Under the pieces are notes generated by a model, which did not search any database, was not told where the DNA came from, and saw only the letters and a program-made list of their open reading frames with translations. This document shows positions 7,501-44,066 of a stretch of 44,778 nt of DNA, one piece after another. Source of the stretch: a virus; the IMG/VR virus record IMGVR_UViG_3300010885_022212, positions 1-44,778 of that record; one strand, 5' to 3'. Position 1 is the stretch's first letter. Each line of letters starts with the position of its first letter. The position numbers and the translations under genes were made by a program.

Positions 7501-7678
7501 TACCTACGTGCCTTCAACAGAGGGGGATCAATTAGAAGGTATAATAGACTGGAATAATCCTCAAACAACTATTAGTTTTTCTAATTCCTCCTCCAATGTT
7601 TGGTCAGGACATGAAGGAATTTTAGAAACAGTTTTTGGTTACGAACTCTATAAAGGTTTAAATCTCTTGAACGATTAA
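4559..7678 (+). CDS. Large baseplate-associated protein with PKD domain and NHL-type beta-propeller
   Basis: This is a 1039-aa protein in the place where T4-like phages carry gp7, directly after gp6. Residues 20-80 form a PKD domain with the hallmark WYFGDGS (36-42) and SHTYTSPGKY (50-59). Residues about 444-745 are an NHL/SMP-30-like propeller, with repeats such as DRDKNLWVSLKNGISSF, DTQSNLYVSY and DNSNHVWFVHS, closing with a C..GDWTG motif (Cys737, GDWTG 740-744). Residues 760-1039 are a separate C-terminal region containing YPFKPNDPGVETYQKIANF and IGGKRYYDIDVLADYLGLP, which looks like a conserved tail domain. The same propeller ending recurs in the 24605-28090 product. I infer a peripheral baseplate or fibre-anchoring role; an enzymatic role is not indicated. 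Family assignment to gp7 is positional only. Confidence 0.75.
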   Translation: MITPTDFSISPSSGESGVTNFELDSGIVDTSYKVTWYFGDGSTFSGLKASHTYTSPGKYIISSIIYHGSDAPVFLQKEVEISLNLNNSICFSFIPPPTFAGHYNRYPFRVNITSPDVQDHYVNLGCQFSRSDSPQDIPNKWSFLRPQWRFFDVKGNPVQKIKTIDTLIKANSAGNIDPLGTNVIGVSGYADFYFTDDIYNFDLATSNQPYTTIIATLDTLDSKDFTLQSDSQNLLPSFANSLASVTCPHVFLWRTPDYLKISENGIRKHSNPRWTSSNVPIIVNSNFNTEVYDPFKEGNGVKVINPDSFFVHNFPVDNRDSLYLNLQSPNHNVAFFPEPSLEWTDSSYYKTPGYYKGVYNLQEVSATNLQINAGLTFNIPPLSGNYYSPLLWLSTPCKNQLYISEHQKFPELRNISSNDPVYTRTVFLSSTPASNNYTIAANLLPDYHAWVLDEKFKKIHRVSSFGQILTSIDIPKLLENSLIISLSGLAENYLAPSFLITDRDKNLWVSLKNGISSFKLDSFGNFLTATNPFISGGYREHTKPVNVETDTQSNLYVSYTNSSEVSGFVVKYFPDGTICETRNFLEPVAKCNHIKCDNSNHVWFVHSLDPVNNFDIIEKKSAEGNLVYYTAASATSAAQFGPYNNVNYLTLDKHQNLWFTCNNKSLYKISSITYEISSIELISELSPIVPESRYAITGLASNFSGKIYAINSDENLVYVVNDSMVIEDTFYIKASSCAVGDWTGFNWINKYGASIPEFSVEETYKTIYGNSEPLDFYVDTATNYNFLKVNENYDLAKTLKGYAFTPKLNESPELFDKFFGSLYGQYPFKPNDPGVETYQKIANFVSNHNDIDTCNIDQLYSNSEMVDLLTDDFRLKYPASIQRLMDLASINQSRLRGSTDSAGLEFNARNQSGFFNRGTLISSFSYRVSGGIPLVLGNKTTYNPYKLIYTGRIGGKRYYDIDVLADYLGLPYPWRNEYEFYTYVPSTEGDQLEGIIDWNNPQTTISFSNSSSNVWSGHEGILETVFGYELYKGLNLLND

Positions 7679-24604: not shown

Positions 24605-27600
24605 ATGTCCGTTTCTTTTAATTTTCCAGACCTCAACACTATTCAATGGCTCCCAGTTAATTATAAAACTGTAGGCCAAGATTATGTTACTAAATTTACT
24701 ACTTTAAAATTTCAAGACGGAGTAACTTTTGGGTTGAATGAATGTTTAAAGAATTTTAAAGATGCATCATTTAATAAGAGCACTGGAATGTTCTTAACTG
24801 ACATTAACACTAGTTCTAACATTTTAGAAGATGCTAGTAACCCCGACGATATTAGCAATCTGGCTCAAATTTTTACACCCATATGCACAGTTGATTCACT
24901 AGACAATAAATTAATAACTCTATCTACAACCTATGAATTGTCTGCCACATCTCGTGTGGCTATGGATTTATTTGGTAAAAATTCTAATGCTCAATCCTCA
25001 GATAATTTTAATTTTATTTTCTCTAAAGATTTCACACATGTATTAAACAACGCAGAAGAAAATTTTGTTTCGGTAGAAACCACTTATTATAGCAAAAACA
25101 CTCAGGAAGTTCCTCATCAATTTTTATTAACTTGGAATAATATTAATAATAAATTAATTTTTCAACCAAAAATACATCCAGATAGTAATAGTCAGAAATT
25201 TTCTTATCTATTGTCCGATGATGGTATTTGTTTATTTAAACCGGATACAAACTTTTCTATACTGGTAGATAAGGATTCAAGCTCAGATACTTTTGTTTTT
25301 AAAAACTATACACCGACTCCGAATGAAGCCCTTCCTCTTTCTTCCTTTTTAAAATTTGTTTCTTATAAAATCCAGCAACTCTCTCATTCAGATATTGTAG
25401 ACAGCCATTTGACTCGGTATGCAGTTAACAAATTAGACTATCAACAAGAAATAGTCCCAGACCCAGAAATTAATTCTGAGCCATATTCTCAAAATTTCTT
25501 AGGCATTTTTCCAGTAGAGAAACCCGTAATTGAAGATGATAGAGCTACCTACAATTTACAAATACACGGATTAAAAAATTATCAAACCCCTGAATACAAT
25601 TACTCTTTTAATAAAAATTATGTAGATGGATACAATGGAGTTCATCGAATATATGATCACATATTTTCCGGATCCAATCAAAAAGAAGGTCTTCTTAATG
25701 TCCATTTGGGGTATACCGCAAATACTTCAGAGTTAACATTTTTAAGAGACCAAGAAACCCCATTTAATTTTGCCTCTACTTCTTTTAGAATGCCTTTGAG
25801 TAGTGCGGGCCTTATAGAAGACGGAGCCATTCCTGGTCATCATCCGTTTGTTTCTGATCGCATATACTTTCGCCAAATGGATTATAATGGACAAATACAG
25901 GGAGTGCCCCAACCTCCTAGTATAAACAAATTCACCAATACATGGTTATGTGCTTGGTTATCTGGGTCTAATAGCAATGGTTCATTATGGATGGATAGAT
26001 TTTATAATGCAGCTTATTATACTTTAGACCAAGCCCTGACTTCAAACAATTTAATTTATCATGATAAAATAGACCCTTCTCAGAGTTACATAATAGATGT
26101 TCCTTCTACTATGTTTTTAGAACCAGGAGCCTTTTATAGATACTATCACAGTGGTATTAAGACTAGTCAACAATATGTGCCTTTTATAGACGGAACCTTC
26201 AACTCTCCGCTTGGATCAAAGGTACTGCATATAAGTTCTTGGAATTCTAATCCTTTACAGGACAATTCTTTATACCAAAACAATGGTTTAATACATCCTG
26301 TGGGTTTTTTGAACAAAGAATCTGATTATTGGGATTTGACTGGAGATAATCATGTTGTGTTTCCATCTAAAAGTCAATTATTAGAAGAACATCACTTTAC
26401 AACCTCTTTATGGGTCAAAGTGTCTAACTGGTCTAATATTCAAGGGAAACAGATATTCGGTAATTTCTATGACAGTGGATATGGCCTACTCAATGATACA
26501 TCTTTAACAGCACCTTTATTATCCTTTATAGATAAATCTACCGGACAACTTTATAATTTAAATTATAAATTTAAAATTGTAAACACTTCTGATACTCCTA
26601 TAGATGCCTTAACCAAAAATATTATCACCGTCAGGCTTCCAGATTTTACTTATTGGGTATTTGATGCCAATAACGGAACTGGTATTAAATTTGACATTGA
26701 AGGAAGGAAATTAAAATCCACCACTCAAAGATTTTTTAGAATAGCTCAAATAGAAGTAGATGAAAATTCAAATCTACATATATTTCAACCTTACAAAAAA
26801 AGAGTAATTGTTTTAAATCAACATGGTGTTTTATTAAACAAACTTACTTATCACATTAAAAAAAGAGCCTCAGTTCGAGTGGAGCTTTTTAAATATCAAA
26901 ATTTTTCTAAAACATCTGTTATTGAAATTTTTGGAAATGCTTCCGTGATTGACAATGAAGGACACATCTGGCAAGTGTTAGGCAATAACCTGTACAAGTC
27001 AACTTACAATGCAATTTCAGATGTTCATGGGTCACCGACATTTTTTGCGACTCTGGGAGTTACCCAACAAATAACCTGTGACTCTTATAACAATATATGG
27101 ATATTACACGATCAAGATAAAATATCCATTCTTAAAGCAAATCAAAAATCTTTTCAGACCTTTAGAATGGGCAAACGCAAAGGCCTTCCTGAAGACCCTT
27201 GTTTAAAAAATTCTGTTAGGTTTCGATATCTTAACTTCGTCAAAACACCAGAAACTAGTACAGTAGATTGTGAGGTTCAAAAATATAAAGATTTAGCAAT
27301 ATTAATAGATGTAAGAGACAACGAATTAATGTTATTAGATTTAAACGGAGATCTCCTCACTCGTTTAGACATGACCACATTGTATGGATTAAAATCTTCC
27401 GTTCCAGAATTTTGTGCGGATGGTGATTTTACTGGATATCAATTATTGAGAAGATTTAAGAGCAATAGTAAAAACATAGGTTGGAAATTTTATATAGCAG
27501 AAAAGACTGGTAGATACCCAGAAACATTATCTTTAAAATATGACAGTTCTTTACTGCATCCCGGGTGGCATCATTTTACTTTTGTTTTTGATGCAGAAAA

Positions 27601-28090
27601 TGGAGTTGCCTCTTATTATATAGATTCTGTTTTAGTGGATCAAACCCCAGTAGACAAAACCAAACAATTGTGGTTTGATTATCGCTCCTCTTTATTGTTA
27701 GGTGCAGAATCTGTAAAAAATAGTAGTTTAAATGATTTAATTAATCTTCAAGATGCTTATAAATTTATAGGGCAAGTTGCAGATTTGAGAATTTATAATA
27801 AATCTTTATCTCAGGGAGATGTTGAACAATTATATTTTAGTTTTAAATATTCAGACAATCGCAAACCGTTAATTTGGAATATGTCTACAGGTAAACGAAA
27901 TTATATCGAAAACATTCAACACTGGTTTCAATTACAATTACCCGGAAGCAAGAGTAAATATTTTAACATTAACATTCACAATTTAAACACAACACCGGAA
28001 ATACAAGCTCTTATAGAAGATGCTATAAGAAAAAATATATCTAAATTAGCACCTGCCTATACTTCTTTGTATAAAATAAACTGGTCATAA
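24605..28090 (+). CDS. Large adhesin-like protein with LamG domain interrupted by a beta-propeller, 1161 aa
   Basis: Residues 1-545 are beta-rich with no recognised family, containing the PFVSDRIYFRQMDYNG and GAFYRYYHSGIKT segments. Residues ~550-625 are the first half of a LamG/concanavalin-like jelly roll (DYWDLTGDNHVVFPSKSQL, then FTTSLWVKV at 598-606). The second half appears only at ~975-1080 (GWHHFTFVFDAENGVASYYI around Trp988, then GQVADLRIYNKSLSQGDVEQ). Between them, ~640-945, is an NHL-type propeller (DENSNLHIFQPYKKRVIVL, DNEGHIWQVLGNNLYKS, DSYNNIWILHDQDKISIL) ending in Cys937-..-GDFTG (940-944), like the propeller of the 4559-7678 product. LamG domains commonly bind carbohydrate, so host-surface glycan binding is inferred. 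It starts a transcript with a candidate late promoter and is followed 3 nt later by the first of three paralogues. Confidence 0.78.
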   Translation: MSVSFNFPDLNTIQWLPVNYKTVGQDYVTKFTTLKFQDGVTFGLNECLKNFKDASFNKSTGMFLTDINTSSNILEDASNPDDISNLAQIFTPICTVDSLDNKLITLSTTYELSATSRVAMDLFGKNSNAQSSDNFNFIFSKDFTHVLNNAEENFVSVETTYYSKNTQEVPHQFLLTWNNINNKLIFQPKIHPDSNSQKFSYLLSDDGICLFKPDTNFSILVDKDSSSDTFVFKNYTPTPNEALPLSSFLKFVSYKIQQLSHSDIVDSHLTRYAVNKLDYQQEIVPDPEINSEPYSQNFLGIFPVEKPVIEDDRATYNLQIHGLKNYQTPEYNYSFNKNYVDGYNGVHRIYDHIFSGSNQKEGLLNVHLGYTANTSELTFLRDQETPFNFASTSFRMPLSSAGLIEDGAIPGHHPFVSDRIYFRQMDYNGQIQGVPQPPSINKFTNTWLCAWLSGSNSNGSLWMDRFYNAAYYTLDQALTSNNLIYHDKIDPSQSYIIDVPSTMFLEPGAFYRYYHSGIKTSQQYVPFIDGTFNSPLGSKVLHISSWNSNPLQDNSLYQNNGLIHPVGFLNKESDYWDLTGDNHVVFPSKSQLLEEHHFTTSLWVKVSNWSNIQGKQIFGNFYDSGYGLLNDTSLTAPLLSFIDKSTGQLYNLNYKFKIVNTSDTPIDALTKNIITVRLPDFTYWVFDANNGTGIKFDIEGRKLKSTTQRFFRIAQIEVDENSNLHIFQPYKKRVIVLNQHGVLLNKLTYHIKKRASVRVELFKYQNFSKTSVIEIFGNASVIDNEGHIWQVLGNNLYKSTYNAISDVHGSPTFFATLGVTQQITCDSYNNIWILHDQDKISILKANQKSFQTFRMGKRKGLPEDPCLKNSVRFRYLNFVKTPETSTVDCEVQKYKDLAILIDVRDNELMLLDLNGDLLTRLDMTTLYGLKSSVPEFCADGDFTGYQLLRRFKSNSKNIGWKFYIAEKTGRYPETLSLKYDSSLLHPGWHHFTFVFDAENGVASYYIDSVLVDQTPVDKTKQLWFDYRSSLLLGAESVKNSSLNDLINLQDAYKFIGQVADLRIYNKSLSQGDVEQLYFSFKYSDNRKPLIWNMSTGKRNYIENIQHWFQLQLPGSKSKYFNINIHNLNTTPEIQALIEDAIRKNISKLAPAYTSLYKINWS

Positions 28091-28093
28091 CCC

Positions 28094-28882
28094 ATGAGTT
28101 CCATTCCAAACATTCCTACCAAATTTAAAGAAGGTTGCTCTTTGATATATCTTATAGATGAAAATCAATGTGTGGCACATTCCAGAGACACCATTAATAA
28201 CAATATTTCTTCTTTGTCTAGCAATTTGCTAAATCTTGAAAATTATGCCCAGTATTGGAATACAGCATATTCAACTTTTTTATCCAACAGTGCTTCCTGG
28301 TTGATTGCATCTTCTCATATACAACAATACAATAAATTGTGGTCTGGGACTTATACCACGGTTAATGCTTTAAGTGCTAGTTGGTACACTCCTTTTACAT
28401 TATACTACCCTCAAATTGTTTTAATAGATACCTGGTATAGCAATCCAGCCGCCTATACCGGCAAGCTTATTCCCGATTGGTTAACAACAAATTTTCCTCC
28501 TTTAAAATATGCCCCTTCACAAATAGTATATATTCAAGTTAATCTGTATCAGCAACAACCCTTTAGTTTTAGTTTTAGCAGATCTCTTTGGGAGGGATGT
28601 GCCCCTCAAGGAGGTGCCTCATTTGTTTGTAATCAAGAATGCGGAGACAGACCTAATAGAGGATGTAATCACCATGACGAACATGCTGGTTGGGGTGCCT
28701 GTGATAATGCCTTTGATCACTGTGGGGTTTCTGTAAGAGCTTTAAATTCTTCTTTCTCTTGCGGCAGTTCTGGCGGAAGACAATTACAAATAAATAAAAA
28801 CTTAACATCGGTAGACACGAGTGTTGCTCGAATTTTAAAATTTACCTATAAAAACATTAACAATACTTGGAGTTTGATATAA
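28094..28882 (+). CDS. Virion adhesin paralogue 1, Cys/His-rich insert, 262 aa
   Basis: This is the first of three tandem related genes. Its N-terminal module has NSASWLIASS, then LSASWYTPFTLYYPQIV and WLTTNFPPLKYAP, the equivalents of LTPLSLFYPQI and WLNQNFPV in the next gene. The final ARILKFTYKNINNTWSLI matches the closing F.F...(N).W element of the paralogues. Between them (about 163-225) is a compact Cys/His-rich segment, with WEGCAPQGGASFVCNQECGD and GCNHHDEHAGWGACDNAFDH containing eight or more cysteines and several histidines. That could bind metal or form disulphides. It has no signal peptide. Downstream of the LamG protein, it is probably a small structural or adhesin subunit; the function is unknown. 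Confidence 0.7.
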   Translation: MSSIPNIPTKFKEGCSLIYLIDENQCVAHSRDTINNNISSLSSNLLNLENYAQYWNTAYSTFLSNSASWLIASSHIQQYNKLWSGTYTTVNALSASWYTPFTLYYPQIVLIDTWYSNPAAYTGKLIPDWLTTNFPPLKYAPSQIVYIQVNLYQQQPFSFSFSRSLWEGCAPQGGASFVCNQECGDRPNRGCNHHDEHAGWGACDNAFDHCGVSVRALNSSFSCGSSGGRQLQINKNLTSVDTSVARILKFTYKNINNTWSLI

Positions 28883-29767
28883 ATGTACAACTTTACCGCC
28901 ATAGGCCTTTCTTCAACTATAGGTGACTCTTTGCCTCTTGTAAACCAAAATTATGAATTTTTGGATCAATGGACTGCAAACATACAATTAAGTGCCACTC
29001 AATATTGGCAACCTTTGATAGATTTGTATAATAGACATTTAACAGATTGGAACCAATCTTTAACACTGGCTCAGCAAAACTCTGCAATTTGGACCAGTGT
29101 TTCTACCACAGTTGAAAGTTTTAGTGCAGCGTGGCTTACTCCATTATCTCTGTTTTATCCCCAAATATATCCTCAAAATACAGATCTGGCCACCGTTAAA
29201 AATACTATAACTGCATGGCTCAATCAAAATTTTCCAGTATCAAATGCATTCACATCTGCTCCCTATTATGTAGAAAATCAAAAAGCAATTGTTTATAATT
29301 ACAATTATTATATAGCAAACATTGTCAATGAAAAACAAACAATTGTAGATCAAACTACCTGCAGCACGCAAGACGGTGTTTCTGTAATTAATTGTCGTAG
29401 TGATTTAACCGGAACTGCATTTTGTAGTAATGGAGATGTGGCCTGTGATGGTAATGGTAGTCAATGTGCTCATAATGAAAGTGTAAGTTGTTCATTTAAC
29501 GCCGGTCCCTATATTGTGGGTCAGGGATATAAAACTGTAGTAGTGCCCAGAGATCCTATAAGAACTATTGATGATGATGGTAATACTGTTCTCACGGCTC
29601 AATCGCCGATAACTACCACAGTTTATGGCAATTTAAGTAATACAGGCCAATCTTATATACAAGCAAATATAAGCACCTATTTTGTAAATCAATCCGAAAC
29701 AACCTCTCTTAATTATTTTAAATTTATAGTCAAGGACTGTCAGTGGGTTTATGTTTCATCCTTTTAA
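28883..29767 (+). CDS. Virion adhesin paralogue 2, 294 aa
   Basis: The start codon directly abuts the previous stop (TAAATG), so translation is probably coupled. The N-terminal module (LSATQYWQPLIDLYN, NSAIWTSVSTTVESFSAAW, LTPLSLFYPQIYP, WLNQNFPVS) aligns with paralogues 1 and 3, and the C-terminus LNYFKFIVKDCQWVYVSSF matches their closing element. The middle (about 165-205) is again Cys-rich but unlike paralogue 1 (TTCSTQDGVSVINCRSD, then CSNGDVACDGNGSQCAHNES). The segment IVVPRD-like TVVVPRDPIRTIDDDGN follows. The ends are conserved and the centre exchanged, which is the pattern expected of binding proteins under diversifying selection. Whether all three are present in one virion cannot be told from sequence. 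Confidence 0.7.
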   Translation: MYNFTAIGLSSTIGDSLPLVNQNYEFLDQWTANIQLSATQYWQPLIDLYNRHLTDWNQSLTLAQQNSAIWTSVSTTVESFSAAWLTPLSLFYPQIYPQNTDLATVKNTITAWLNQNFPVSNAFTSAPYYVENQKAIVYNYNYYIANIVNEKQTIVDQTTCSTQDGVSVINCRSDLTGTAFCSNGDVACDGNGSQCAHNESVSCSFNAGPYIVGQGYKTVVVPRDPIRTIDDDGNTVLTAQSPITTTVYGNLSNTGQSYIQANISTYFVNQSETTSLNYFKFIVKDCQWVYVSSF

Positions 29768-29780
29768 TAGATAATTCAAT

Positions 29781-31160
29781 ATGGCAAATAACCGACAATT
29801 CACCTATGAAATATTTGAACAAGATTGCTTAGGCAACAGTGCTGGAAAACATAATTTTAATAGCTTGAGCTTAGAAACTCAAATATGTAATTTGTCCAGT
29901 TCTTTCATGTCTCCTAATAACTTGTTTACGACTTCTTTAAGTGGATTTTTGGCACAAGTAGATAAACTTAAACAATTCGGAGATTTAAATAGATTTAATA
30001 AAACCTTTACCACAGTTTCTTTGTTAAGTTCTTATTGGAATGTTCAAGACTTTTCAGTTTTATACCCTCTCAATATATCCAGCCAAGGAGGCCAGTCAAT
30101 AGTAGGCCCAACCTCACAAACTCCAGCAACAGAATTAATTTCATTGGCTCAGTCTTATTTAACTGCCAATTTTCCTAATAGTTCTTATACACCAAATACA
30201 AGAGCCAGTGTAAACATGTTTGTTTATAACTATCCCTCTAATCCGTATGATCCCAATATTCTTAATTCTGTAACAAATTCTAATGAATTTTCCTTTACAA
30301 ACAGAAGCATGAATGTTTCTATGTCTAGACAAGACATACATCTAGAAAAGGGAAACATTTTCCAATTTTCAAATATTAACAATAAATGGGCCAGCATTAA
30401 TGTATTAGGACCCACCGTTGTCTTGGACTCAACTACCAACAGAAAAAAAATAACATTAACCATCAATTCAAATCAAATAAATTTTAATGTAGGAGACGTT
30501 ATTAGAAAGATGCCAGAGTATGTGCAAGGCCACACAGATGTCGTGCTGACTATCAATAGTGGGGTTATAATATCCAGTGGTAGACCAGAAGATGCGGCTC
30601 TTTCAATAGCTAATCTTAGTAATGGAGATTATGTATTTTTGTTTAATAATGGTATTATTATTGGATGTGGTGGATCCGGCGGTCAAGGAGGTGATAGTTT
30701 GGATACAAAAAACACCAAAGGTGCTGCCGGCAGTCGCGGTGGACCTGCCATAGCCGCTTTTGTTCCTTGTACCATAGAAAACCACGGGCACATTTATGCG
30801 GGCGGCGGCGGCGGTGCCGGCGGAACTGGTGGTTTAACTGGATCAACCTCGGTCGGAGGCGGCGGCGGCGGCGGTGCTGGAATATACGGAGGCACAGGTG
30901 GTCGCAGAGGCACTAACATCATTTATAGAAGTAAAGGGGTATTTGTGAATGATGGTTTGCCAGGAGAGCGTTCCTTAGGTGGCATAGGAGGTCCGGGTTT
31001 GTCTACAGATCCTTTAGCTACGGGGGGTAATGGTGGTAATATCGGTAAGCCTGGATTTAAATCAGATTCAGCAGATGGAGGGCCTGCGGGATATTATATA
31101 CTAGGAAATTCAAATGTTTTCTGGGCTATTACCGGTGACGTAAAAGGCGAGGTGTCTTAA
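29781..31160 (+). CDS. Virion adhesin paralogue 3 fused to glycine-rich gp38-like receptor-binding module, 459 aa
   Basis: The first ~215 residues parallel the two preceding genes (LLSSYWNVQDFSVLYPLN, SYLTANFPNS, and a module end NIFQFSNINNKWASINV), but with no Cys-rich insert. After this point a new module begins: DVVLTINSGVIISSGRPEDA (about 254-273), NGDYVFLFNNGIIIGCGGSG, AAGSRGGPAIAAFVPC, then IENHGHIYAGGGGGAGGTGG and more glycine runs up to ~440. Glycine-rich stretches of this kind form packed polyglycine-II helices in the gp38-type adhesins at long-fibre tips of T-even-like phages, where the loops contact the receptor. Here the module is fused to the paralogue scaffold rather than being a separate gene. 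Receptor binding is inferred from this similarity. Confidence 0.75.
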   Translation: MANNRQFTYEIFEQDCLGNSAGKHNFNSLSLETQICNLSSSFMSPNNLFTTSLSGFLAQVDKLKQFGDLNRFNKTFTTVSLLSSYWNVQDFSVLYPLNISSQGGQSIVGPTSQTPATELISLAQSYLTANFPNSSYTPNTRASVNMFVYNYPSNPYDPNILNSVTNSNEFSFTNRSMNVSMSRQDIHLEKGNIFQFSNINNKWASINVLGPTVVLDSTTNRKKITLTINSNQINFNVGDVIRKMPEYVQGHTDVVLTINSGVIISSGRPEDAALSIANLSNGDYVFLFNNGIIIGCGGSGGQGGDSLDTKNTKGAAGSRGGPAIAAFVPCTIENHGHIYAGGGGGAGGTGGLTGSTSVGGGGGGGAGIYGGTGGRRGTNIIYRSKGVFVNDGLPGERSLGGIGGPGLSTDPLATGGNGGNIGKPGFKSDSADGGPAGYYILGNSNVFWAITGDVKGEVS

Positions 31161-31168
31161 TATAATAT

Positions 31169-31570
31169 ATGTTTGCCTTGTTTAATACAAATCTTAATTT
31201 TATAGGTTATTCGCCAGACATTCAAGACCAGCCCCATATTTTAAAAAAAGAAATACCGGAACACCAAAGAGATCTTAATGTTTGGAAATGGGAAGGAAAT
31301 TATACAGATGGAAAAATGGTTTCTATTTTTGAAGAAGGGATTCCTCAAGAAGAATTAGAAGAACAAAAAAGAATGTTTAATGATTTAAATTCAAAATATC
31401 CAACCGGAGTTCAGTTGGTTAATATTATAAGACAACTTAAAAAAATAGCAGAACAATCTGAACTTCAAGATGACAGGTTTATGGACATGGCTGAAAATGT
31501 TTTAAATGTTATGGACAAACACGATAAACATCTTAAATATGTTTTAACCAGAAAGAAATTTTTTAATTAA
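31169..31570 (+). CDS. Hypothetical protein, probably helical, 133 aa
   Basis: I do not recognise this protein. Residues 1-55 look like a short beta unit (MFALFNTNLNFIGYSPDI, then NVWKWEGNYTDGKMVSIFE). From about 56 onward it is charged and helical (EELEEQKRMFNDLNSKYP, IRQLKKIAEQSELQDDRFMD, MDKHDKHLKYVLTRKK), with coiled-coil character. There are no cysteines. It follows the glycine-rich adhesin by 8 nt and precedes another small gene by 2 nt. The small beta unit plus helix would suit a fibre-assembly helper for the upstream adhesin, like the chaperone at 22297, but the sequences are not visibly alike and this is inference. Confidence 0.65.
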   Translation: MFALFNTNLNFIGYSPDIQDQPHILKKEIPEHQRDLNVWKWEGNYTDGKMVSIFEEGIPQEELEEQKRMFNDLNSKYPTGVQLVNIIRQLKKIAEQSELQDDRFMDMAENVLNVMDKHDKHLKYVLTRKKFFN

Positions 31571-31572
31571 AA

Positions 31573-32046
31573 ATGAATACCAAAAATCCAGACCCCTATT
31601 TATTTTTCAAATATAATCGTGGCGTGGGAGACCTCGTTGCCAGCATTCTACATTCAAAGGCCTTCGGGTGGCTTACAAAGAGAATTACCGGAAAAGATAA
31701 ACCATGTACCATCTGCTCCAAAAGAGCTGATGCTTTAAATACTTTATTTCCTATACCATTTTGGAGATTGTTTTTTAAAGATGTCGCAATCATGACCGAA
31801 TCTTTAAGTGATGATCTTCGTCGTGCCGGATATCAAACTTCCATGACATCAAATAGATCTGAGATATCTTCCATGAAAACAGAATTTATTCCCGAAGAAG
31901 GAAACAATAACAAATCTGTAAATTTTAATCCTTTAAATGATATATTCAATGATGAAAAATTGGCAAAATATTTCTTTATAAGCTCTAGTGATCAGGAAGT
32001 GGATCATTTATTAATACGCACACAATATTTTAAACTTAAACCTTAA
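31573..32046 (+). CDS. Hypothetical protein with CxxC motif, 157 aa
   Basis: Residues 17-60 contain a conserved-looking block: GVGDLVASILHSKAFG, then GKDKPCTICSKRADALNTLFP, with a CxxC pair followed by an Arg/Leu-Asn segment. I have seen comparable GxGD...C..C..R...LN..FP blocks in small phage proteins of unknown role, but cannot name a family. The block might bind zinc with nearby His27, although only two cysteines are present. Residues 60-157 are polar with a SSDQEVDHLLIRTQYFKLKP end. No membrane segment or signal peptide is seen. It overlaps no gene, starts 2 nt after the previous stop and ends 2 nt before the ferritin-like gene. Confidence 0.65.
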   Translation: MNTKNPDPYLFFKYNRGVGDLVASILHSKAFGWLTKRITGKDKPCTICSKRADALNTLFPIPFWRLFFKDVAIMTESLSDDLRRAGYQTSMTSNRSEISSMKTEFIPEEGNNNKSVNFNPLNDIFNDEKLAKYFFISSSDQEVDHLLIRTQYFKLKP

Positions 32047-32048
32047 TT

Positions 32049-32510
32049 ATGGAAATTACCGTTATACGAGCCCCTGAGGAAAATTCCTTGGAATCTACAC
32101 AATATTTTGGATTATTGTTATCAAAAACCTTGACTCTAATACACATGACTCATTGGTATATTTTAAATCCAAATATTCATGAAATATTGGGAGATCTATA
32201 TGAAGACTTAGATGGTCTATTTGACAAACTGCAAGAAGAGGTTATAGGCACTACTAAACTTCAAGGCAAGCCGTTTCCATATTTTTCACCTGATTGTTTA
32301 GATATAGAAAATTTAGATCAATATAAAGGTGACAACGTAGATCTTATGGAAACCTATCACAAGACTACCACAAAACTTATAGCCATATTAAATTCCTTAG
32401 AATTTACCAATTATATAGGTTCTGTGTCTTCTGGACTAAACAACACCAAGGAAGACATCCTTTCCCGTGTTAATAAGGCTAATTATTTATTAGCCATGAT
32501 ACAAGTATAG
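32049..32510 (+). CDS. Ferritin/Dps-like four-helix protein, 153 aa
   Basis: The first two helices show a Dps-type metal site: HW at 35-36, His44, then Asp59 and Glu63, giving HW-x8-H-x14-D-x3-E, within LLSKTLTLIHMTHWYILN and NIHEILGDLYEDLDGLFDKL. In Dps proteins the corresponding His, His, Asp and Glu bind iron at the ferroxidase centre. Two further helical segments follow (VDLMETYHKTTTKLIAILNS, KEDILSRVNKANYLLAMIQV), completing a likely four-helix bundle. Related ferritin-like proteins of uncertain role occur in other large phages. The function could be iron or DNA protection, or a purely structural use of the fold. It is the only gene in the window ending in TAG, and its last 28 nt overlap the convergent glycosyltransferase gene. 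Confidence 0.72.
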   Translation: MEITVIRAPEENSLESTQYFGLLLSKTLTLIHMTHWYILNPNIHEILGDLYEDLDGLFDKLQEEVIGTTKLQGKPFPYFSPDCLDIENLDQYKGDNVDLMETYHKTTTKLIAILNSLEFTNYIGSVSSGLNNTKEDILSRVNKANYLLAMIQV

Positions 32511-33628
32511 TCAGTACCGTACATACCTTCTAAATTCAGATCTGAATGCGGTTCATACCAGCCATTTCCTTGGTAGATATCTAATACTTGTTGGAAGTAG
32601 TGTTCATATTTTCTAGCTATCACACTCATGGAGTAATTAGCATTTGCCCAGGCGGCACATGTATAGGGGTTAATGTTTTTAATATTATTAATAGCCCATA
32701 TAAAATCACCCATAGTTCTTCCACGATAACCCGTAACTCCGTGAGGATTGACTTCTGTAAAAGCTCCCCAATCAGATGAAATTACCGGAGTTCCGGACAT
32801 GTGGTATTCTACTTGTACTCCTCCAAATGGTTCTATGTAGGTGCTCGCAATAAAACCAGCCTTTGCCTTAGACATCAGCTTTCTTCGGGTTTCAATATCT
32901 GCGTAACCTATACATTCAACATGAGACGGCCATTCTTTGAGACCCACATTAGAAGGATCTCCCTGACCTGCTATAATTAATTTGTGTCCAGTTTTTTCAG
33001 TGGCCTGAATGGCTATGTCTACTCCCTTGGCGCTAGTTATTCGGCCCAGAGCTAAAATGTAATCATCTTTCTCTGCTTCAAATGTAAATTCTGTAGGATC
33101 AAAATAATTGGGAATTACAGTATGATACCAATCCATAATACCCATGGCCACAGCATTCACTCCACACAAAGCATGCATTACTGCATAAGACTCATACACC
33201 TTGAAACGAGAAAAAGAATGTGGATATCCAATACCTGGTTCCACCACAATCAAATCCTGATTAGCATCACAGGCACCCTTAACTCCATATCCCCAAAAAG
33301 CTAAAATAAAATCATTCTTTTGTTTTCGTTTAGCAATTTCTTTTCCGGCTCTTTCATTAAAAACCGTATGAGCATGATCCCCTGCATTATGCTTGAAGAA
33401 ATTTTTCTTCCAATCATAATTGCCATAAGCAATCTCTAAATCTTCATCAGTGGTGACTGTAACATGTTCATCGGCATCTACCACACTATCTGCGTGTCCA
33501 TAATGAATAAGAGTGTGACCTCTCCCTTTCATCATCCTACAGAACTTGACAACCTTTTGAGTAAAGGCACAAGCATTATATTCTGGGGAACTAACGGTGT
33601 GTGGTAGACCTAGGACATGAAATCTCAT
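32483..33628 (-). CDS. Glycosyltransferase, GT4-like (GT-B fold), 381 aa
   Basis: This should transfer a sugar from a nucleotide sugar to an acceptor. The C-terminal half has the GT-B donor-site layout: ILALGRITSAKGVDIAIQAT (191-210), KLIIAGQGD (216-224), then EPFGGVQVE (266-274) giving the E-x7-E motif, and GTPVISSDWGAFTEV (279-293). The N-terminus (MRFHVLGLPHTVSSPEYNAC) and the VEPGIGYPHSFSRFKVYE stretch (129-146) form the acceptor domain. There is no signal peptide, so it acts in the cytoplasm. It lies among fibre genes, and could decorate virion proteins, phage DNA or host glycans; the sequence does not decide. Its 3' end overlaps the ferritin-like gene tail to tail by 28 nt. Confidence 0.88.
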   Translation of the reverse strand: MRFHVLGLPHTVSSPEYNACAFTQKVVKFCRMMKGRGHTLIHYGHADSVVDADEHVTVTTDEDLEIAYGNYDWKKNFFKHNAGDHAHTVFNERAGKEIAKRKQKNDFILAFWGYGVKGACDANQDLIVVEPGIGYPHSFSRFKVYESYAVMHALCGVNAVAMGIMDWYHTVIPNYFDPTEFTFEAEKDDYILALGRITSAKGVDIAIQATEKTGHKLIIAGQGDPSNVGLKEWPSHVECIGYADIETRRKLMSKAKAGFIASTYIEPFGGVQVEYHMSGTPVISSDWGAFTEVNPHGVTGYRGRTMGDFIWAINNIKNINPYTCAAWANANYSMSVIARKYEHYFQQVLDIYQGNGWYEPHSDLNLEGMYGTDYTCIMANK

Positions 33629-33637
33629 AATATTATA

Positions 33638-33689
33638 TATAAGATATTCATTCCTATTTTCAACTATTCAACTAAAATATTATCTTATA
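33638..33689. repeat. Inverted repeat, possible weak hairpin after the 1821-aa fibre gene
   Basis: TATAAGATA at 33638-33646 and its reverse complement TATCTTATA at 33681-33689 are separated by 34 nt. The pair spans the stop of the fibre gene and the region before the glycosyltransferase start. It is A/T-rich with no T-run, so a role as terminator or mRNA-end structure is only a possibility. Confidence 0.3.
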
Positions 33690-36600
33690 AAAGACACCCC
33701 AATTTCATTACAATTATACAAATTACCTGCATATGCAGCCTGAATTCTACACGAATTAATTGTTTTAGAATCAGCAATCGTAGAACGTGCTCCAATTGAA
33801 AGACCTCCATCAACAGCGGTTGTACTATAATAAACACCACCTTGTATGACATAGTATGCATCAATCATAGGAGATGTAAATGTTATAGTATAATCGCCAT
33901 TGGCATTACTAACAATATGGTCTACATTAAATGAGGCCTTTATCATAGATCTGATTGTCAAGGTTCCTGCTGGCGCATTACCATAGTCGAGGCTTACTTC
34001 GAATGTATAACTGTTGGCATCGAGCTCTGTAATAACACGGCCAACACTAGTGTCCCATATACTATAATCAGGTGACGAATTAGAATCCATCGCATTAACT
34101 ATTTCTGCTATCATACCCGTGGAATAACCATGAGATGTATGAGTAACAGTCACCAAGTTCCCGCTTCGGGTATAAGGCTTGGTTGTTTGAGGCACACCAC
34201 AAAAGGTTACCCAAGCTTTTGTTGAAAACCGAGTATCACTTCCCAACACAACCTGGTCACCTCCCGCATTGGTGTCTGGTGCAGCCGTATCCACTAAGGC
34301 AGCTGTGCCCAAAGATAATGATCGAGAGGATGCATAAGTTACTAATCCAGTGGAATTGACTTCTATAACGGGAATTGATAGAGATAAATCACTTATGGTT
34401 TTTGGAACATGGGTAAAATCACCAGAGGGCACACTAATAGAAGCATTTCTAAGATTTGACACCCAGTTAGTATTGGCTGGGCTATTGTATATAATACCCG
34501 GACTAGTAGAATTTCTCACCCATTTTCCGTTTCCATATACTCCACTATATGTTGCACCCGGAGATGTTCCAGCCGCCTGCCACGCAATTCCGTCTGTGGT
34601 ACTGTACCAAATGCCTTGGGTTCTTAAATAAAGTATTCCGTTTTGTTGAACAAAGGTTGCTGATGTGCCCAATCCCGAGACAACCAAGTTTCCTAAGGCA
34701 AATCTCTTTAGGTCGGAAGAATAATACACAACAATACGAGCCGTTGAACTTATGTATTGAGTGGTTATTAGTATATACAAAGAATTGTAGTATACAATGC
34801 TAGATGGACCCGTCGTAGACCACCCAGTCAAAGCTTTAAAATGTTCTCCATCTGTAGAATCTGTAATTGTTCCTGCATATCCAACACCAGTATATTTGTT
34901 GTTGACATATAATAAAGAATTAAATAGAGGAAAATTGTTATAAAGATTTGCGGGGCTCCGGGTGAATAGATAATCAGGTGGACTAATTCTTTTCCAATTG
35001 ACCAAATCTGTGGAAGTGCAAAGATAACTGCCACAAGTAATCCATCTACCGTTTAAATACCATATACCATATTGAGTCATCGTTGACCAATGGGATGAGG
35101 TCAGGCTAGAAGAAATATTGGTATAAAGATCTGTCAAGCTAGTTGGTGCTGCTACGGTCGTCCAAGTTATTCCATCTGCAGAAGATTGCATTATGACATT
35201 GGTGGTACTTGCATTTAAATAATAACGCCCATTCGCATATGTCATGGAATTTACCCCCACTGTGGTAGCGGGAACTGAATATGTCCAAGTAATTCCGTCT
35301 GTTGACATATAAAATCTTACAGTTGTACTAGAAATAATACAAAATTTACCATTCAGAAATTTTATGTTTGCAACAGTTCCGGTCCACGATGCTATTGTTC
35401 GTGTGGTCCAATTTATCCCGTCTGTTGAAGTTGTACATTTGCCAGCGGAGTCCACCATGACAAATGTATTATTACCAAAAACCACTCCTTTTATATGAGT
35501 AGCTAAACCGCCTGTAGCATAAGGAATAGAGCGCCTAGTCCAGGTCAGGCCATCAGAAGAAGTTGCAAAAGAGGTTCCATAGGATCCCGTAGGACTCAGT
35601 CTGTAATTACCGGCGGTTACAAACAGTCCGTTGCCGTAAGTCACGGTATTTAGGCCGTATAAAAAACCCGCCGTTGTTCCGGTATCTGCCGGAGAGAGGG
35701 CATTATAAAGTAATCCACTGACATATATTTCAGCCCAATCTTCCCCGTTGGTAGAAGTGTATATCCCTCTTTTTGTGCCTGTGCTGCTGCCGCCAACTGC
35801 CACATAAAGCCCGTTTGCATATGTTAAATCCGCAAAATTAAAAGTACCAATAGAGCCACCTGGTGCATTTCTTTCAAACCAGGTATTAGAATCTGTGGAA
35901 GTAATAAGCCTGTCTATTGTAGAACCCATTATTATATATTTTGAATTTAAATATTGAGCGCCCGGACTTATACTAGTAAAATAAGCATCTAAAGTTCCAC
36001 CATCAGCGATATTGTTTACACTTTTAATGACCCAATTAATGCCATCAGAAGATATGTAAATTCTTCCATAAGATGCAGATACCACAAATTTTCCTTCATT
36101 ATAGGTTATAGAGTTTGCAATAGTTGAAGAAGTTAAAGGAACTGAATACATTCCAGACAAAGAAATAGTCCAGGTAACTCCACCATTTAAAGAATAATAA
36201 ATAGTATCATCACACACCACAACATAGGTATTTGACCCCGATGCATAGGCAACTCCGGAAAAAGTTCCTAAAAAATTATTTGATTTCCAAGTTATTCCGT
36301 CTGAAGAATTTAATTTGGAACCAGAACCCAGAGCCCATATATAATTTCCAGCAACTGCAAAAGAAGAACCCAAATCTAACCCACCAGAAATAGTCCAATT
36401 TAGTGCATCTGTAGAGCGAGCATATGAGCCAGAATCTATTGAACCGTCTTTATTCTGCAATCTACATATATAAAGATTGTTAAAAAATTCTAAGTAACGG
36501 GCAGTTTTACCACCAAATACATTAGTGGTGTGGTTCCAGGTTGTCGTGTCTGATAAAGATGCAAGTGCGGCTAATCCTTTATTATCAGTTGCCAATAAAG

Positions 36601-39145
36601 GGGCGTATGGTTTTTCGGAAGATTTAACTATGGAAGTAATTACTCCGTACGCTGCATTCGCTACATTTCCGAAAAGTGGGTCCTTTTCTGCCCACACTCT
36701 ACTCAATCTTCCTAGAGTTAAATCTATATAAGATGACACAATACGAATCCCGTCCGTGTACACCACTTGTATTTTATTTGAATCTGGTGACAATGATAAA
36801 CAAATAGAATCATTTTGAATAGGATAGGCGCCTTGTGCGGCTAAAATGCCTATATCATTTTCACTGTTGTATAGAGTTAATCCAGGAGTGTTAGGGTCCA
36901 TTATAGCCCACCCCAAACCGTTAAGTTGATAACTTGTATCAAATCCTCCATCAATACCGTTTTTAAATATTATACTAGAATGGAATGGAATTGTTTGGCC
37001 CACATTATCATCTAAATTATACCCGGCTACAACAAAATAATGAGCATCTGTTTTTCCGGTTTTGACTCTTAAATATCCAATATTTCCTATAGCACCTATT
37101 CTAAGAGGATGGGTTGAACCATATAAGGCAGCATAGGGGCCTATATTTTCAGCTGCCGGATCAGCAAAATTATATATTGACTTCCATTCCATATACCCCC
37201 CATTGTTGCCGGTGTTCCAATTTATACCCGTTGAATGATATAAAGAATATTGAGGTACCACAGTTGCGGCAATTGATTGAGTAGGTTCACCATTGCGAGT
37301 TAATGCCCAAAAAAATTCACCATTATATCCAATTTTAGCAATGCTTGGCAATGTCCCGACGCCACTATTTATATGCAGTTGCAAGTTCTTCCATGTTAAC
37401 CCATCCGTGGAACTGTAACCATATGAAAAAACAGCAGGGTCTCCGTTTACAATTTTTATAAATTGATTATCAATACAAAACATGTTAACTAATATTGCAC
37501 TATTAGGGTTGAAGTACGCCGCAAAATCATGTAAACTATAATTCCAGGTGATTCCTCCATCTAAGGATACAGCATTTGCGTAATTAGAAAAACAGATAAG
37601 AATTTTTTTATCACTCTGTGCAACACCTACCACAGAGGGAGCAGTCGTCTGTCCTTGGAAAACTCCAATTTGAGACAACACAATTACATTATCCTGCCAA
37701 GTAATTCCTTCATCTGTGGAAATATGAGTTCTTATTTGAGGAGTTATTCCGTCAGCAAGATATTCTATTCCGGTATCAAAAAACAAAAGCCCGGCAGTAG
37801 AAAACCCGTAAGACCCCGCTGGCGAAGGATTTAGAGCAGACAAAGAACCCACACCAGAGCCGGTTACAATGCCGGTTAAGTGGCTGCCGTCTCCGTAAAG
37901 AGTTGTTGCTGAGACATAAGAAGAAAAGGTACCAGAAGAAATGCTTAAATTTGAAGGATATGCACCGGTGGCTCCAATAAGCCCTTGTATGCCTGTGGCT
38001 CCTGTGGTCCCTTGTATACCTGTAGCACCTAGCCCAGTAGCTCCAATAAGCCCTTGTATGCCTGTGGTCCCTTGTATACCTGTAGCACCTAGCCCAGTAG
38101 CTCCAATAAGCCCTTGTATACCTGTGGCTCCTGTGGTCCCTTGTATACCTGTAGCACCTAGCCCAGTGGCTCCAATAAGCCCTTGTATGCCTGTGGCTCC
38201 TGTGGTCCCTTGTATACCTGTAGCACCTAGCCCAGTGGCTCCAATAAGCCCTTGTATGCCTGTGGCTCCTGTGGTCCCGGTAAGTCCTTGTATACCAGTA
38301 GCACCACCGGGTGTGCCTTGTAATCCAGTAGCGCCTTGTATACCAGTAGCACCACCGGGTGTGCCTTGTAATCCAGTAGCGCCTTGTAATCCAGTGGCAC
38401 CTATTCCAGTAGCGCCTTGTAATCCAGTGGCACCTTGTAAACCTGTAGCACCTCCCGGCGTCCCTTGTATACCAGTGGCTCCTTGTACTCCCGTGGCCCC
38501 AGTAGGACCACCAGAGGGACCAGTAGATCCCACAGGGCCCGTGGCTCCTGTAGCACCTAGTCCCGTAGCCCCTTTTAGTCCCATGATGCCGGCAGGGCCA
38601 CTGGGCCCCGTTGATCCAGTAGCTCCCAATGATCCTGTGGCACCTGTGGGGCCTCCTGAAGGCCCCGTGGCCCCTAAGGGTCCTGTGGCACCTTGCACGC
38701 CTGTAGCACCAGAAGCTCCTATACCCGTAGCACCCGTAGCTCCTATACCCGTAGCTCCAGTAGCACCAGCGTGCCCATCTGGTCCAACATTTCCGGTTAA
38801 TCCCATAGGTCCGCTGGGTCCTGTAGAACCAGTCAATCCAGTGTTTCCTGTAAAGCCAGTCAATCCAATAGGCCCAGAGGCTCCATCAGGTCCGGTCGGT
38901 CCAATAGGTCCTGTGCTTCCTATAGGTCCGTCTAATCCAGTGGGTCCAATGGGACCGGAAGGCCCGGAGGCACCCAGAGGCCCAGTGGCTCCTAATAATA
39001 TAACATCTCTTACAACACCGGCTACGTAATTATTAATAGCACTCAACGGTAATGTGCTGGTAATATTGTTGTGACTAGCCAAGAGCACATCAGTCGCACT
39101 CGGATTGGTCACTAAAGGAAAATCTCTGATGGTTTTATTACGCAT
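33680..39145 (-). CDS. Giant fibre: collagen-like shaft, Asp-box (BNR) propeller region, C-terminal adhesin domain, 1821 aa
   Basis: Residues 1-51 ([20 protein letters not shown]) look like an anchoring segment and resemble the start of the 15064-19788 fibre. Residues 52-~394 are a collagen-like Gly-X-Y shaft. Residues ~465-1565 hold about 18 Asp-box/BNR-like motifs of the type [16 protein letters not shown] and NGGVTWT, spaced by 40-90 residues with [10 protein letters not shown]-type strands between. This predicts one or more large beta-propellers, as in sialidases and photosynthesis-type Asp-box proteins. No catalytic sialidase residues were identified. The last ~255 residues contain [28 protein letters not shown] and a final tip with [20 protein letters not shown]. 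These are common in phage fibre ends. The protein is probably a long fibre with a very large binding head. Confidence 0.83.
37972..38290 (-). repeat. 69-bp tandem repeats in collagen-like segment
   Basis: Near-identical units begin at 37972, 38041, 38101, 38170 and 38239. Spacings are 69, 60, 69 and 69 bp, so one unit has lost exactly 9 bp (one collagen-type GAT triplet) in frame. Each unit encodes 23 residues of the pattern [18 protein letters not shown]. The near-identity suggests recent expansion and ready length variation of the fibre shaft. Confidence 0.9.
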
Positions 39146-39155
39146 ATTATAATTA

Positions 39156-39163
39156 TATTTAGA
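39156..39163 (-). promoter_or_regulatory. Possible late promoter before the 1821-aa fibre gene
   Basis: On the minus strand TCTAAATA lies 10 nt before the ATG at 39145, with its TAAATA core including the stop codon of the upstream vWA gene. It is T4-late-like but lacks the 6-nt spacing and may be accidental. Confidence 0.3.
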
Positions 39164-42100
39164 TCCAAGCTATCGGTTTTTGATCATCTCCCGTTAAGAT
39201 GTCTTCTAGATCATCTACAATGAAATTTCCTTCGGTGTCTATATTGAAAGTTATGTATATTGGCACACTACTAACCATACCCATTAAGTTACTAACTTGA
39301 CACACATAGACCCCCGAGGTTTCTGGCACAGATTTAAATATTTTATAATCAGTAAAGGCGCCACCAACTATGGGTGTATTATTATGATACCATTGATAAC
39401 TAAAGGGTTGTTCGCCAGATGCTATTATAGATAAGGCACAGAAAGATCCTACATTAATACTAAGAGCAGAAGCAGTCTGAAATATAATAGTAGGAGGCAA
39501 CTTTTTAATATGTATCACTTCTGTTTGTAATTGTTTATACAAGCCGTAATCATTACCAAATATGTCACATCTCCATTGAACCATGGTACCTTTATTGGCT
39601 AATAATTTATTAACATGAGTTCCATATACATCGGATAAAAGTTCTTTTCTGTAATTAGAATCCGAAGTTTTATCTTTCCATATTACATTATTATCCTCAT
39701 TAAATTTCCAAAATTGAAAATCATCTTGCTGACGCGCCAAGCCATGAGTGTTATAACCTAATATTTCATAATCAGATTGATATGGAGTAAATTTTTGGTT
39801 TTCCTTGGTTCCTAATATAACACCAGCCTTGGCACCAGATCCATAAGGCTCCATTATCCATTTGTTATCTATTCCATCTAATACAACGGGAGATAATTGA
39901 TCCTTTTTAGTCAATCCTCTATTGCGAGATCCATACTTTTTGGGATCCAAAAACACCGCTTCACTATTAGATAAACTTATAGCCGATAAATTAGTTTGAT
40001 TAACAGAATAACTATACCCTCTTCCTCTGTAGGTAGATACTCCCAAATTTTCAGGTAACATATACCCACCTACTTCATTTTCTGTTACGGCTAAATTAGG
40101 GAAAGAAACCGTGGCTGCGGTCGGAAAAAATCTATTATCCAAATTTGCATAAGGTTCCGCAGGTTCTATAAACACACCCGAATTGAAAATTATATAATTG
40201 GATATGCATCTGTTTTTTAGATACAAATTTTCAGAATAAGAAAAAGAATTTACAGCATAATAATGATATCTTGCTGGTTTATATTCAGAATATCCTTCTA
40301 ATAAAATATCACTTAGTTCTGTAGAGCCTTGTATAATACAATCTAGTTTATTAGACCGTAAAATAGATTCTAAATTAGAATACTTCTTGTCAAATATAAT
40401 TTTATTCCATTGAACAGTATTAATAGTAACATCAAAATTTAATGGTTGATCCCACCCTAAATCCAAGGCTCCAATTCTATTGTATTGAACATAATCCCCA
40501 GTGTTTAAAGACATGACAGAAATGTCTGGCTGATGGAGAGGCACATAATCATATACAAATTTAATTTGCCCAGCATAAACCACTGGGTTTGTAGGAACCT
40601 TTGCCCAAAAAGGTTTTGCCCCAAAAGAAGGGCCCACATTTAGGTTTGAAAAATTACTCATTTCATAATCCCAACCATCCAATTTAATATTGATAGTAAA
40701 TGATACACCCGGTTGATAAAATTCCACACCAGCAAAGGTGTCAATGTAGGAAGTGCCGCCTTGATGTTCGTATATTAAATAATCATTAGGTCTTAATATA
40801 ATATCAGATACCAATGTAGTTTCTATCCAATTACCACTTTGATTTTTGATAGCCTTGCGCCACACCGGATAGAAGGGCACACACCCATTTATTCTTGTAG
40901 ATATGTAACTTATAAAAGAATCATAATTTCCGTCCCCGGATACAAGATATTTATAAAGATTAAAATGGGTTTGATCTGAAGTAGCTATTTGTTCCATCAA
41001 GCTATTAGTTAGAGATAATTCTCCCATACTAATAGCTTGAATTTCTATACCTTTATTTTTATATTGTTTTGCTAAACTTACAATATCTGCGGAATCTTCT
41101 GTGGTAGATACCCCATCACTAATAATAACAATTTTTTGTATAGCACCTTTTTGAGGCGAATTTAAAGCCCCACTCAATTTTGATTGATTCGCCAGTGTAA
41201 CATTAAGACTACTGCATAAAGTTTTTAAATCTAAAAGAGTTTTGTCTAATCCAGGAGATGTTGGATTTAAGATATTGTCACACAAACGCAAAGCAGCTGA
41301 AAAGTTAGTTTGATAATCTGGAAATTGAGTGGGACAATTTAAAGCTTCTATTTGAAGATTTAGTTCATACTCTTCATTGGTAAGATAGTTTACCATTACA
41401 CTATTAGCAGCAAATCCTACTATAGCAACCTGCACAGATTTTTGTCTATCATAACAAACATTTGAACCATCATTTGTGCAGGCATTAATAAGCTTAGAAC
41501 ATATAGTGTTTACAGCTTTTTTAACTTTATCAAAATCAAAACTTTGTGATCTGCTATAATCCAAGGCTATAACAATGTCATACTTTACATCATTGCCATC
41601 ACACATGATGGCATTTAATTTTGGATATATGTAATTGCAAACAAAATAAGGTGAAGATTTGGCAGATATAGTATTACCAGCACCACTGGAACTATTAGTT
41701 CTAAGACCAGATCTGCAATAGGTATAACGCCGACCCGTTTTCAGAATCATTCTATCACCTACTTCAGACAATGTAGTATCGCTGGTTTTCCATCTACCAG
41801 TACCAAACCCAATGTTTCCATCTCCTTCAGTTTGATCTAATTGAAAGAAGGAGAATTGTGGGCTATCCTTTATATTCAAGCCTCTCGTGTCTACCCAAGA
41901 ACCTATAGTAAATTTATCTCCAAGACCAAAAGGATCTGCAAACAGATAGTCTGCTGTGCCGTTATAATCTGTGACCTTATTCCCTTTATGACCAATCGGT
42001 GAATAGTGTACGGCTTTACAAGAACATTGAGTCCAATAATTTTTATTAGATAAAGAAACCGGGTTAACAAAGTCTTGGTCTTTGTAATATTCATGTGGAT

Positions 42101-44066
42101 ATGTTTTTCCATACACACAATTCTTTTCATGGTTAATATATTTAAACACCTCATCAGCAAAGGTATCTTCTCCGCACCATATGAAAGATATCTTCTCATT
42201 AGCATTTGCTTTAAATGATATAGAACTTTGTATTGAACCATCCACAAAATGAGAACATTCAACGGCACTCATTTGGCCATAAATCATTATGTTTTGGGTG
42301 GTTATGTTTAAGTGACTCACCGGTTCACTTCCGTACCAGGCAGCTTCTGTTGCTTGGGTAACATCACCTCTGCTGTTTAATTTATAAATTACATCTGATG
42401 TGGAAATAGTCTGCCCGGCAACTGCACCGGCCATAGCATAAGAAGAATTAACCTCTGATAGTCTTATAGGTAAACAATCATTTTCTGTGAAATTGGTAGG
42501 TAAAGTGTCACCAGTTGTGAAAGTTTGTACCGGCCATTGTATATTATTAGTCCCCTTGATGATTGCTAAATCTGTTCTATCAAATTTATAAACAAATGAT
42601 ATCTCAGTATCTATCCCCGAGTGAATTTCCGGAGTTGTATAATCATGAGTTCTTTTTATAATGACATCTGCTTCATCAGAAAATTTACCCGCAGTGGCCC
42701 CTCTGTCTATTAAAGTACTTTGATTTAAATAAATGGGAAGGGAAGCTGTTAGAGGAAAATTTGTAGTATAATATTTGGTTAAAATGTCTACTTGTTGTTC
42801 GGTAGTTAAAGCTTTAAAGAATTTATCATTATTTCTTTCTAAATTAAAGTTTTTGAAAATCATTTCACGGGTATCTAGGTCATACCCAACAAACGGATAT
42901 AAAAACTCTGTAACCTCTCCGCCTTTTAATATGATATTAGTTCTACCGTTTACTGGTAAACTATATGGCCCTTGTAACCAAGCTCCTTCCACTGTTCCAT
43001 TTTTATCAGAAAATAATAAATCAGAATTTGTGTAAGTCGAACCCGGAGTTGCTCCGGATTGAATAAAAGAAGATTCTTGAATGTTTATAGGTGAATATGA
43101 ATTATTATAAACATTATGTTTTAATTCTTGATATCCACTTGGCCATAAAAACCAATTATCTCCCTGAGCCATTCCTACATTTAATATAAAATCTGGCTGA
43201 GCCACTTCTTCCAATTTTACAGCAGTAAGACCGTACAAGGTTTCACCTAAAAATTTTTGACTAATGGCTATTTGATTATTGATCTGAGAAGTTTGGCTGG
43301 ATAAAGAGGGGTTTGAAGTTACATTAGAAAGATAATCTTTGAATATGTTAGAGAGTGGAGTGTCTGACACCCTGTCTAAAAATCTAGTAGAAATCATGCC
43401 AAGTATTTCCTTTTCAGAAAAGGGATTTACATCATCTTTTAATGGTAAAAAATCTTCTATGTGGCTATAATCCAGATATTCTTTTACATCAACACTCGGA
43501 TCTGAGTCATGATAATTTGCAACATCATGCAGCTCTTCTAGTTCTATAAAGAAATCATTTTTTATAGAACTTAATTCCGGAAACATTGTTTGTATCGGCA
43601 ATGCCGGAATTTGAGTAACCAACCCGTCCCTTTGAGTAAAGGTTCTCAATACATAATCATATAACAAAGACTCTAAACCTTTATTAGAACCTATTAAATT
43701 AAATTTATTTTTAGCTCTTTTAACAGACTCTCTTTTTGAATTTAAAACTTTGGCCACCTCTGTAAGTTTCTTGGCAAAAAAAGGAATTGCTAAAATAAGA
43801 TCTTCTTGATTATTATAATCTATATCTTTTATAAAAAGATTAGTTTCATTTTGAGCAAAAATAAAATTAAGATCTTTAATTAACTGTATAAATTCTTGTT
43901 TTAATGCCTCCTTAGCTTTAGATGAATGCTGATTTTTGTTATTGTACCATTGTTTGAGGTATTGTATATAAGCAGATTCAGAAGCCCCGTGAACATCTGC
44001 ATAACTCTGTTGCATTTGCCATTGGCTAAAAGTCCATGGTGTTGAGTTTTCAGAATGATTAGACAT
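39159..44066 (-). CDS. Large virion protein with von Willebrand A domain and C-terminal Ig domain, 1635 aa
   Basis: Residues 1-170 are helical ([54 protein letters not shown]) and recall the N-termini of large uncharacterised baseplate proteins of T4-like phages. The ~200-825 region is mostly beta. Residues ~826-1058 form a vWA domain with a complete metal site (MIDAS): DYSRS (836-840), Thr920 in QTNFSAAL and Asp984 in IISDG. vWA MIDAS domains bind protein ligands through a divalent metal. Residues ~1523-1607 are an Ig-like domain ([20 protein letters not shown], then [10 protein letters not shown]) with the Cys, Trp and Cys core. The protein is probably exposed on the tail or baseplate and may contact host protein or other virion proteins. 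The gene is followed by the collagen/BNR fibre, 13 nt further along on the minus strand. Confidence 0.8.

Follow-up and report, generated by a model that had tools for sequence, protein, structure and literature searches.

A vWA domain with an intact MIDAS motif in a family of large proteins from uncultured T4-like viruses

Results

The vWA/Ig gene and its surroundings

The DNA analysed here, referred to as the window, is the whole 44,778-nucleotide stretch of IMG/VR virus record IMGVR_UViG_3300010885_022212. It contains a long open reading frame on the minus strand, a strand that an earlier note on this DNA had not stated. Related loci are denoted L003, L006 and so on. The gene and its parts, in window coordinates and residue numbers of the encoded protein, are as follows.

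39159-44066, minus strand: gene for the 1635-residue vWA/Ig protein, read from 44066 to 39159 with an ATG start; relative L003 is 67% identical across the full length
43635-44030, minus strand: N-terminal part, residues 13-144, predicted helical (secondary structure of the AlphaFold2 model; confidence low to middling)
41601-41603, minus strand: Cys822, on the N-terminal flank of the vWA domain; co-present or co-absent with Cys1062 in 30 of 32 sequences
40881-41579, minus strand: vWA domain, residues 830-1062 (Pfam; fold match with Z 22)
41547-41561, minus strand: MIDAS motif D836-x-S838-x-S840 (DYSRS); D-x-S-x-[S/T] conserved in 37 of 37 members
41307-41309, minus strand: MIDAS Thr920, invariant in 37 of 37 members
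41115-41117, minus strand: MIDAS Asp984; Asp here, Asn in three members of one clade
40881-40883, minus strand: Cys1062, on the C-terminal flank of the vWA domain; co-present or co-absent with Cys822 in 30 of 32 sequences
39534-40196, minus strand: most conserved scaffold block, residues 1291-1511, with 82% identity to L003 and 55% to L006
39288-39497, minus strand: C-terminal Ig domain, residues 1524-1593, at an exchangeable position (Pfam, PHROGs and PDB matches; exchange in relatives)

In the window, the vWA gene has fibre genes for neighbours. One of these (33680-39145, minus strand) follows it after 13 bases, and the 1821-residue product has a collagen GXY stalk followed by SxDGxxW-type repeats, Asp-box-like as judged by eye. 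The neighbour types are identical in L003. A glycosyltransferase gene (32483-33628, minus strand; phrog_3408, E 3.5e-149) closes the fibre gene run, and an RCC1-like repeat protein is encoded amid fibre genes at 22787-24556 on the plus strand. Seven tail-region genes occupy 24605-32510 on the plus strand and show synteny with the vWA gene across many relatives; the vWA gene of other family members often adjoins a block homologous to this region. The protein encoded at 24605-28090 had no relative among phage isolates by tblastn. In L035 and L006, the vWA gene is found inside the baseplate cluster, downstream of gp25-gp6, and the gene order in L035 reads clamp loader, gp25, gp6, the 4559-7678 homologue, a 254-residue gene, the vWA gene, and the 7700-13459 homologue. 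The T4-type major capsid protein gp23 was present in all ten contigs tested and psbA in none of the ten, a result still compatible with a cyanophage origin. From the gene neighbourhood we infer that the vWA/Ig protein is a virion component.

The vWA domain and the protein termini

The open reading frame holds a real vWA domain with all five MIDAS residues. The earlier note had read DYSRS, Thr920, and Asp984 from the sequence; the first of these begins at residue 836, and the other two are located within QTNFS and ISDGVS, respectively. The Pfam VWA profile (PF00092) matches with E 9.7e-10 when the whole protein is searched and E 4.6e-12 for the domain alone, and the score of 39.4 bits for the window protein is above the curated cut-off of 23.8. 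A family-specific insert following T920 splits the match in two.

An AlphaFold2 model was calculated for residues 560-1635 from 31 sequences. The vWA region (model residues 264-504) is predicted with pLDDT values mostly between 75 and 90, and shows strands alternating with helices, but confidence is low for much of the chain beyond residue 1125, for most of the N-terminal half, and for most of the scaffold. When the predicted fold was compared with known structures using VIA-align, the best match was the pilus-tip vWA domain of Mfa5 (Z 22.2, 2.2 Å over 176 residues), followed by CMG2 (Z 22) and the integrin alpha-M I domain (Z 21); overall, the vWA matches have Z about 20-22 and rmsd 2.2-2.7 Å over about 170-185 residues. 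Foldseek likewise places the predicted structure with vWA domains, with SpaC among the matches. The predicted fold is thus that of a vWA domain. Fold likeness by itself proves no function, and vWA folds serve intracellular roles too.

As for the termini, the N-terminal helices described in the earlier note are predicted by AlphaFold2, with low to middling confidence, whereas the label "tail-type" given to them there finds no library match. For the C-terminal Ig domain, Pfam Ig_3 stays under the cut-off in the window protein (E 1.1e-5) and passes it in the relative L142 (E 1.1e-12), and the window domain resembles phage tail proteins in PHROGs (phrog_3995, E 4.7e-7) and in the PDB (9c2d, E 3.9e-12).

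A family with a fixed metal site and exchangeable C-termini

The window protein is a member of an undescribed family found in uncultured T4-like viruses of bacteria. A query covering the conserved block (1290-1525) recovered L006, and alignments of three sequences, made for this block and for the N-terminus, recovered further relatives. All family queries were free of the vWA domain, with the sole exception of the first, which found L003. The initial set comprised 32 complete vWA members, counting the window and with duplicates removed, and one truncated member; five were added later, giving 37 intact members. Median pairwise identity among members is 43%, and Pfam detects the vWA domain in 26 of the 26 members scanned.

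Conservation of the MIDAS positions among homologues had been proposed as a check on the earlier reading. D836, S838, Ser or Thr at 840, T920, and Asp or Asn at 984 are retained in each of the 37 intact members. Among the first 32, D836, S838, and T920 are invariant; at position 840, 27 members have Ser and 5 have Thr, and at position 984, 29 have Asp and 3 have Asn. The three Asn984 members belong to one clade, and count against the explanation that we favour below. The domain around these residues is more variable: between the window and L006, identity is 35.5% in the vWA domain, 43-55% in other parts of the scaffold, and 23% in the C-terminus. L017, L019, and L026 carry a coiled-coil-like insert of about 260-290 residues straight after the MIDAS Asp loop.

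Beyond residue 1511 or so, the members differ in kind. An Ig domain is found there in the window, L003, L142, and L143, Laminin_G_3 in L006, and a legume lectin in L033 and L039, while the L012-L026 clade shares a related module of about 240-280 residues, with a glycine-rich insert in L012. The remaining proteins end in other unclassified stretches, in short tails, or in nothing further. The C-terminal module changed no fewer than 15 times across the 32 tips, a count in which every unclassified module is its own class. A Cys-rich module has a gene of its own (3226-3990) next to the vWA gene in L006, and in L008 (9667-10335) it is fused to the vWA protein and forms its C-terminus; the two versions are 43% identical.

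The vWA domain is flanked by a pair of cysteines in many members. Of 32 sequences, 18 have equivalents of both C822 and C1062, 12 have neither, and the remaining 2 are discordant. In vWF A1 and A3, a disulphide closes the vWA domain, and a similar closure through C822-C1062 is suggested by the sequences. Because the joint presence and absence amounts to about four independent changes (about 3-4 on the tree), the covariation is suggestive only.

Relatives without the domain

Six more distant relatives (L141 and L156-L160) have no vWA domain and show a clean junction in its place. They fit the family profile up to about residue 805 and again from about residue 1040. At this point L141 reads LVIRYPYSQYESEYNKSLVWLKAVKDENDNWVSTN, and the vWA members have a strand ending in Y.Y, the domain, and then W.KAI. 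Some 45 residues beyond the junction, the vWA-less proteins carry another insert of about 160 residues, for which no Pfam match was obtained in the three tested. In a scaffold tree calculated with the vWA columns excluded, proteins with and without the domain form two clades, separated by one change. On this tree, the domain was gained or lost once in the family; the tree is unrooted and the direction undecidable from it. Because the contigs of the vWA-less relatives were reached via the neighbour family of window 24605-28090, their scaffold gene probably sits at the same locus as the vWA gene. Among 12 contigs picked via the 24605-28090 family, all of them fragments, 8 have the scaffold gene, in one case without the vWA domain.

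Discussion

Possible role of the vWA domain

Because the MIDAS is conserved among homologues and the fold is that of a vWA domain, a metal-dependent protein contact would be the likeliest role for the domain. The earlier note had proposed such a contact at the tail, either with a host surface protein or as a switch in the baseplate. Neither of the two outcomes that it had named as refuting, MIDAS residues that vary among close homologues or a predicted fold other than vWA, was observed, and the proposal is partly supported. The variation that resembles that of a host-range determinant lies in the C-terminus past residue 1511, and not in the vWA domain. Phage tails recognise hosts through fibres, Ig-like modules, and carbohydrate-binding modules.

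Our best explanation, which we regard as close to evenly balanced, is that the protein is a baseplate-region component of a T4-like virion, in which a conserved scaffold presents a host-contacting MIDAS vWA domain together with a swappable C-terminal module. The long scaffold would then bear two binding devices. The first would be the vWA domain, seated in one scaffold loop and in many members flanked by the cysteine pair; its MIDAS would hold a divalent metal, the coordination of which would be completed by an acidic residue of a protein ligand, as can be expected from the vWA family. Virion incorporation, metal binding, and the ligand are all inferred. By analogy with integrin I domains and pilus-tip vWA domains, the ligand would most likely reside on the host surface, which we rank first because the metal site stays fixed while the rest of the vWA domain diverges, and because the protein carries lectin or Ig modules. 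The second device would be the C-terminal module, Ig in the window and lectin-type or other in relatives, which probably tunes the contact with different hosts. That an uncultured T4-like lineage thereby combines metal-dependent host adhesion, through a baseplate protein bearing an integrin-like vWA domain with a MIDAS, with an exchangeable lectin or Ig module is possible, and we advance it with some reserve.

The main rival to a ligand on the host surface is a metal-dependent contact inside the virion, where the vWA domain would bind another baseplate or fibre protein and hold or release it during rearrangement, as a clasp or switch. An internal partner could account for the unvarying metal site, it is the C-terminus, and not the conserved MIDAS, that has a host-specific look, and in L035 the vWA gene belongs to the baseplate cluster. 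For a fixed internal interface, however, it is unexpected that the domain is less conserved than the rest of the scaffold in the comparison of the window with L006, and six related proteins manage without it; we consider an internal contact rather unlikely. The absence of the domain from the sister clade could also fit a structural or stabilising element in which the metal has no ligand and the conserved residues serve folding, and some vWA domains do bind metal with no ligand known. That D836, S838, and T920 are invariant while the rest of the domain strongly diverges, and that the best fold matches are adhesion vWA domains, both make this improbable.

An assembly factor paired with a MoxR-type AAA+ ATPase, similar to viral vWA co-chaperones, must also be considered, since vWA-MoxR pairs are on record in viruses (PMC7824862, PMC7911831). 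We find this very improbable, because no MoxR-type ATPase exceeds the cut-off (AAA_3 in 0 of 8 long relatives, whose records may all be fragments) and because, in the four genomes examined by alignment, the principal AAA_5 matches proved to be the loader of the sliding clamp. A long scaffold with lectin or Ig modules is also unlike the architecture of a co-chaperone.

If host contact by the domain is true, metal-dependent protein adhesion would join the means by which phages recognise hosts; with a ligand inside the virion, a metal-dependent baseplate clasp would be revealed. The family also takes in conserved tail-region genes that are absent from PHROGs.

Comparison with known systems

A known adhesion fold is present in a phage protein family where, in the sources searched, it had not previously been described. 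Searches of 50,697 phage records by tblastn, with the complete protein, separate parts of it, and two distant members as queries, found no relative of the vWA/Ig protein at the sensitivities used, and the vWA piece by itself produced matches no better than chance in phage records (E 5 and above). Prokaryote genomes likewise yielded no relative at the sensitivity used, and no report of a vWA domain in phage virions was found in the open-access literature searched.

The vWA gene of L035 shares with the genes for the T4 and cyanophage wedge proteins (gp7, gp8, gp10, and gp7-like) a place downstream of gp6 within the baseplate cluster. Homology of the scaffold to these baseplate proteins was considered and rejected, as there is no profile similarity: hhalign probabilities against T4 gp7, gp8, and gp10 or the cyanophage counterparts are about 1% or less, and a vWA domain was not found in them here.

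Viral vWA proteins in the literature searched include the CobT type (PMC8651126), MoxR partners and TerF (PMC7824862), adaptor-like proteins of haloviruses (PMC7911831), and gp25 of phage N4 (PMC4193335). Unlike CobT, TerF, the MoxR co-chaperones, and N4 gp25, which are intracellular or non-adhesive and share with our family the presence of a vWA domain in a virus, the protein described here is large, is encoded in or near a baseplate cluster, and has Ig or lectin modules, and a MoxR partner was not found over the cut-off in the eight long relatives, which may be fragments. The nearest parallel in an isolate is gene 141 of the Salicola jumbo phage SCTP-2 (MF360958, 139271-148561; locus L164), a 3096-residue open reading frame with two vWA domains that is annotated as hypothetical. 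It is also a very large phage protein holding a vWA domain, but the likeness to our family is confined to the vWA part and is weak (hhalign probability 36%).

Outside viruses, the integrin alpha I domains and the vWA domain of CMG2/ANTXR2 share the fold (Z about 20-22) and all five MIDAS positions with the phage domain. A relation at the level of the full protein is undetectable, and the phage family has an insert of its own between T920 and the D984 strand. Mfa5 of Porphyromonas gingivalis and SpaC of Lactobacillus rhamnosus resemble the phage protein in having the vWA fold within a larger surface protein. Both are bacterial pilus proteins, whereas the vWA domain in the window, with about 19% identity to Mfa5, is part of a putative phage baseplate-region scaffold.
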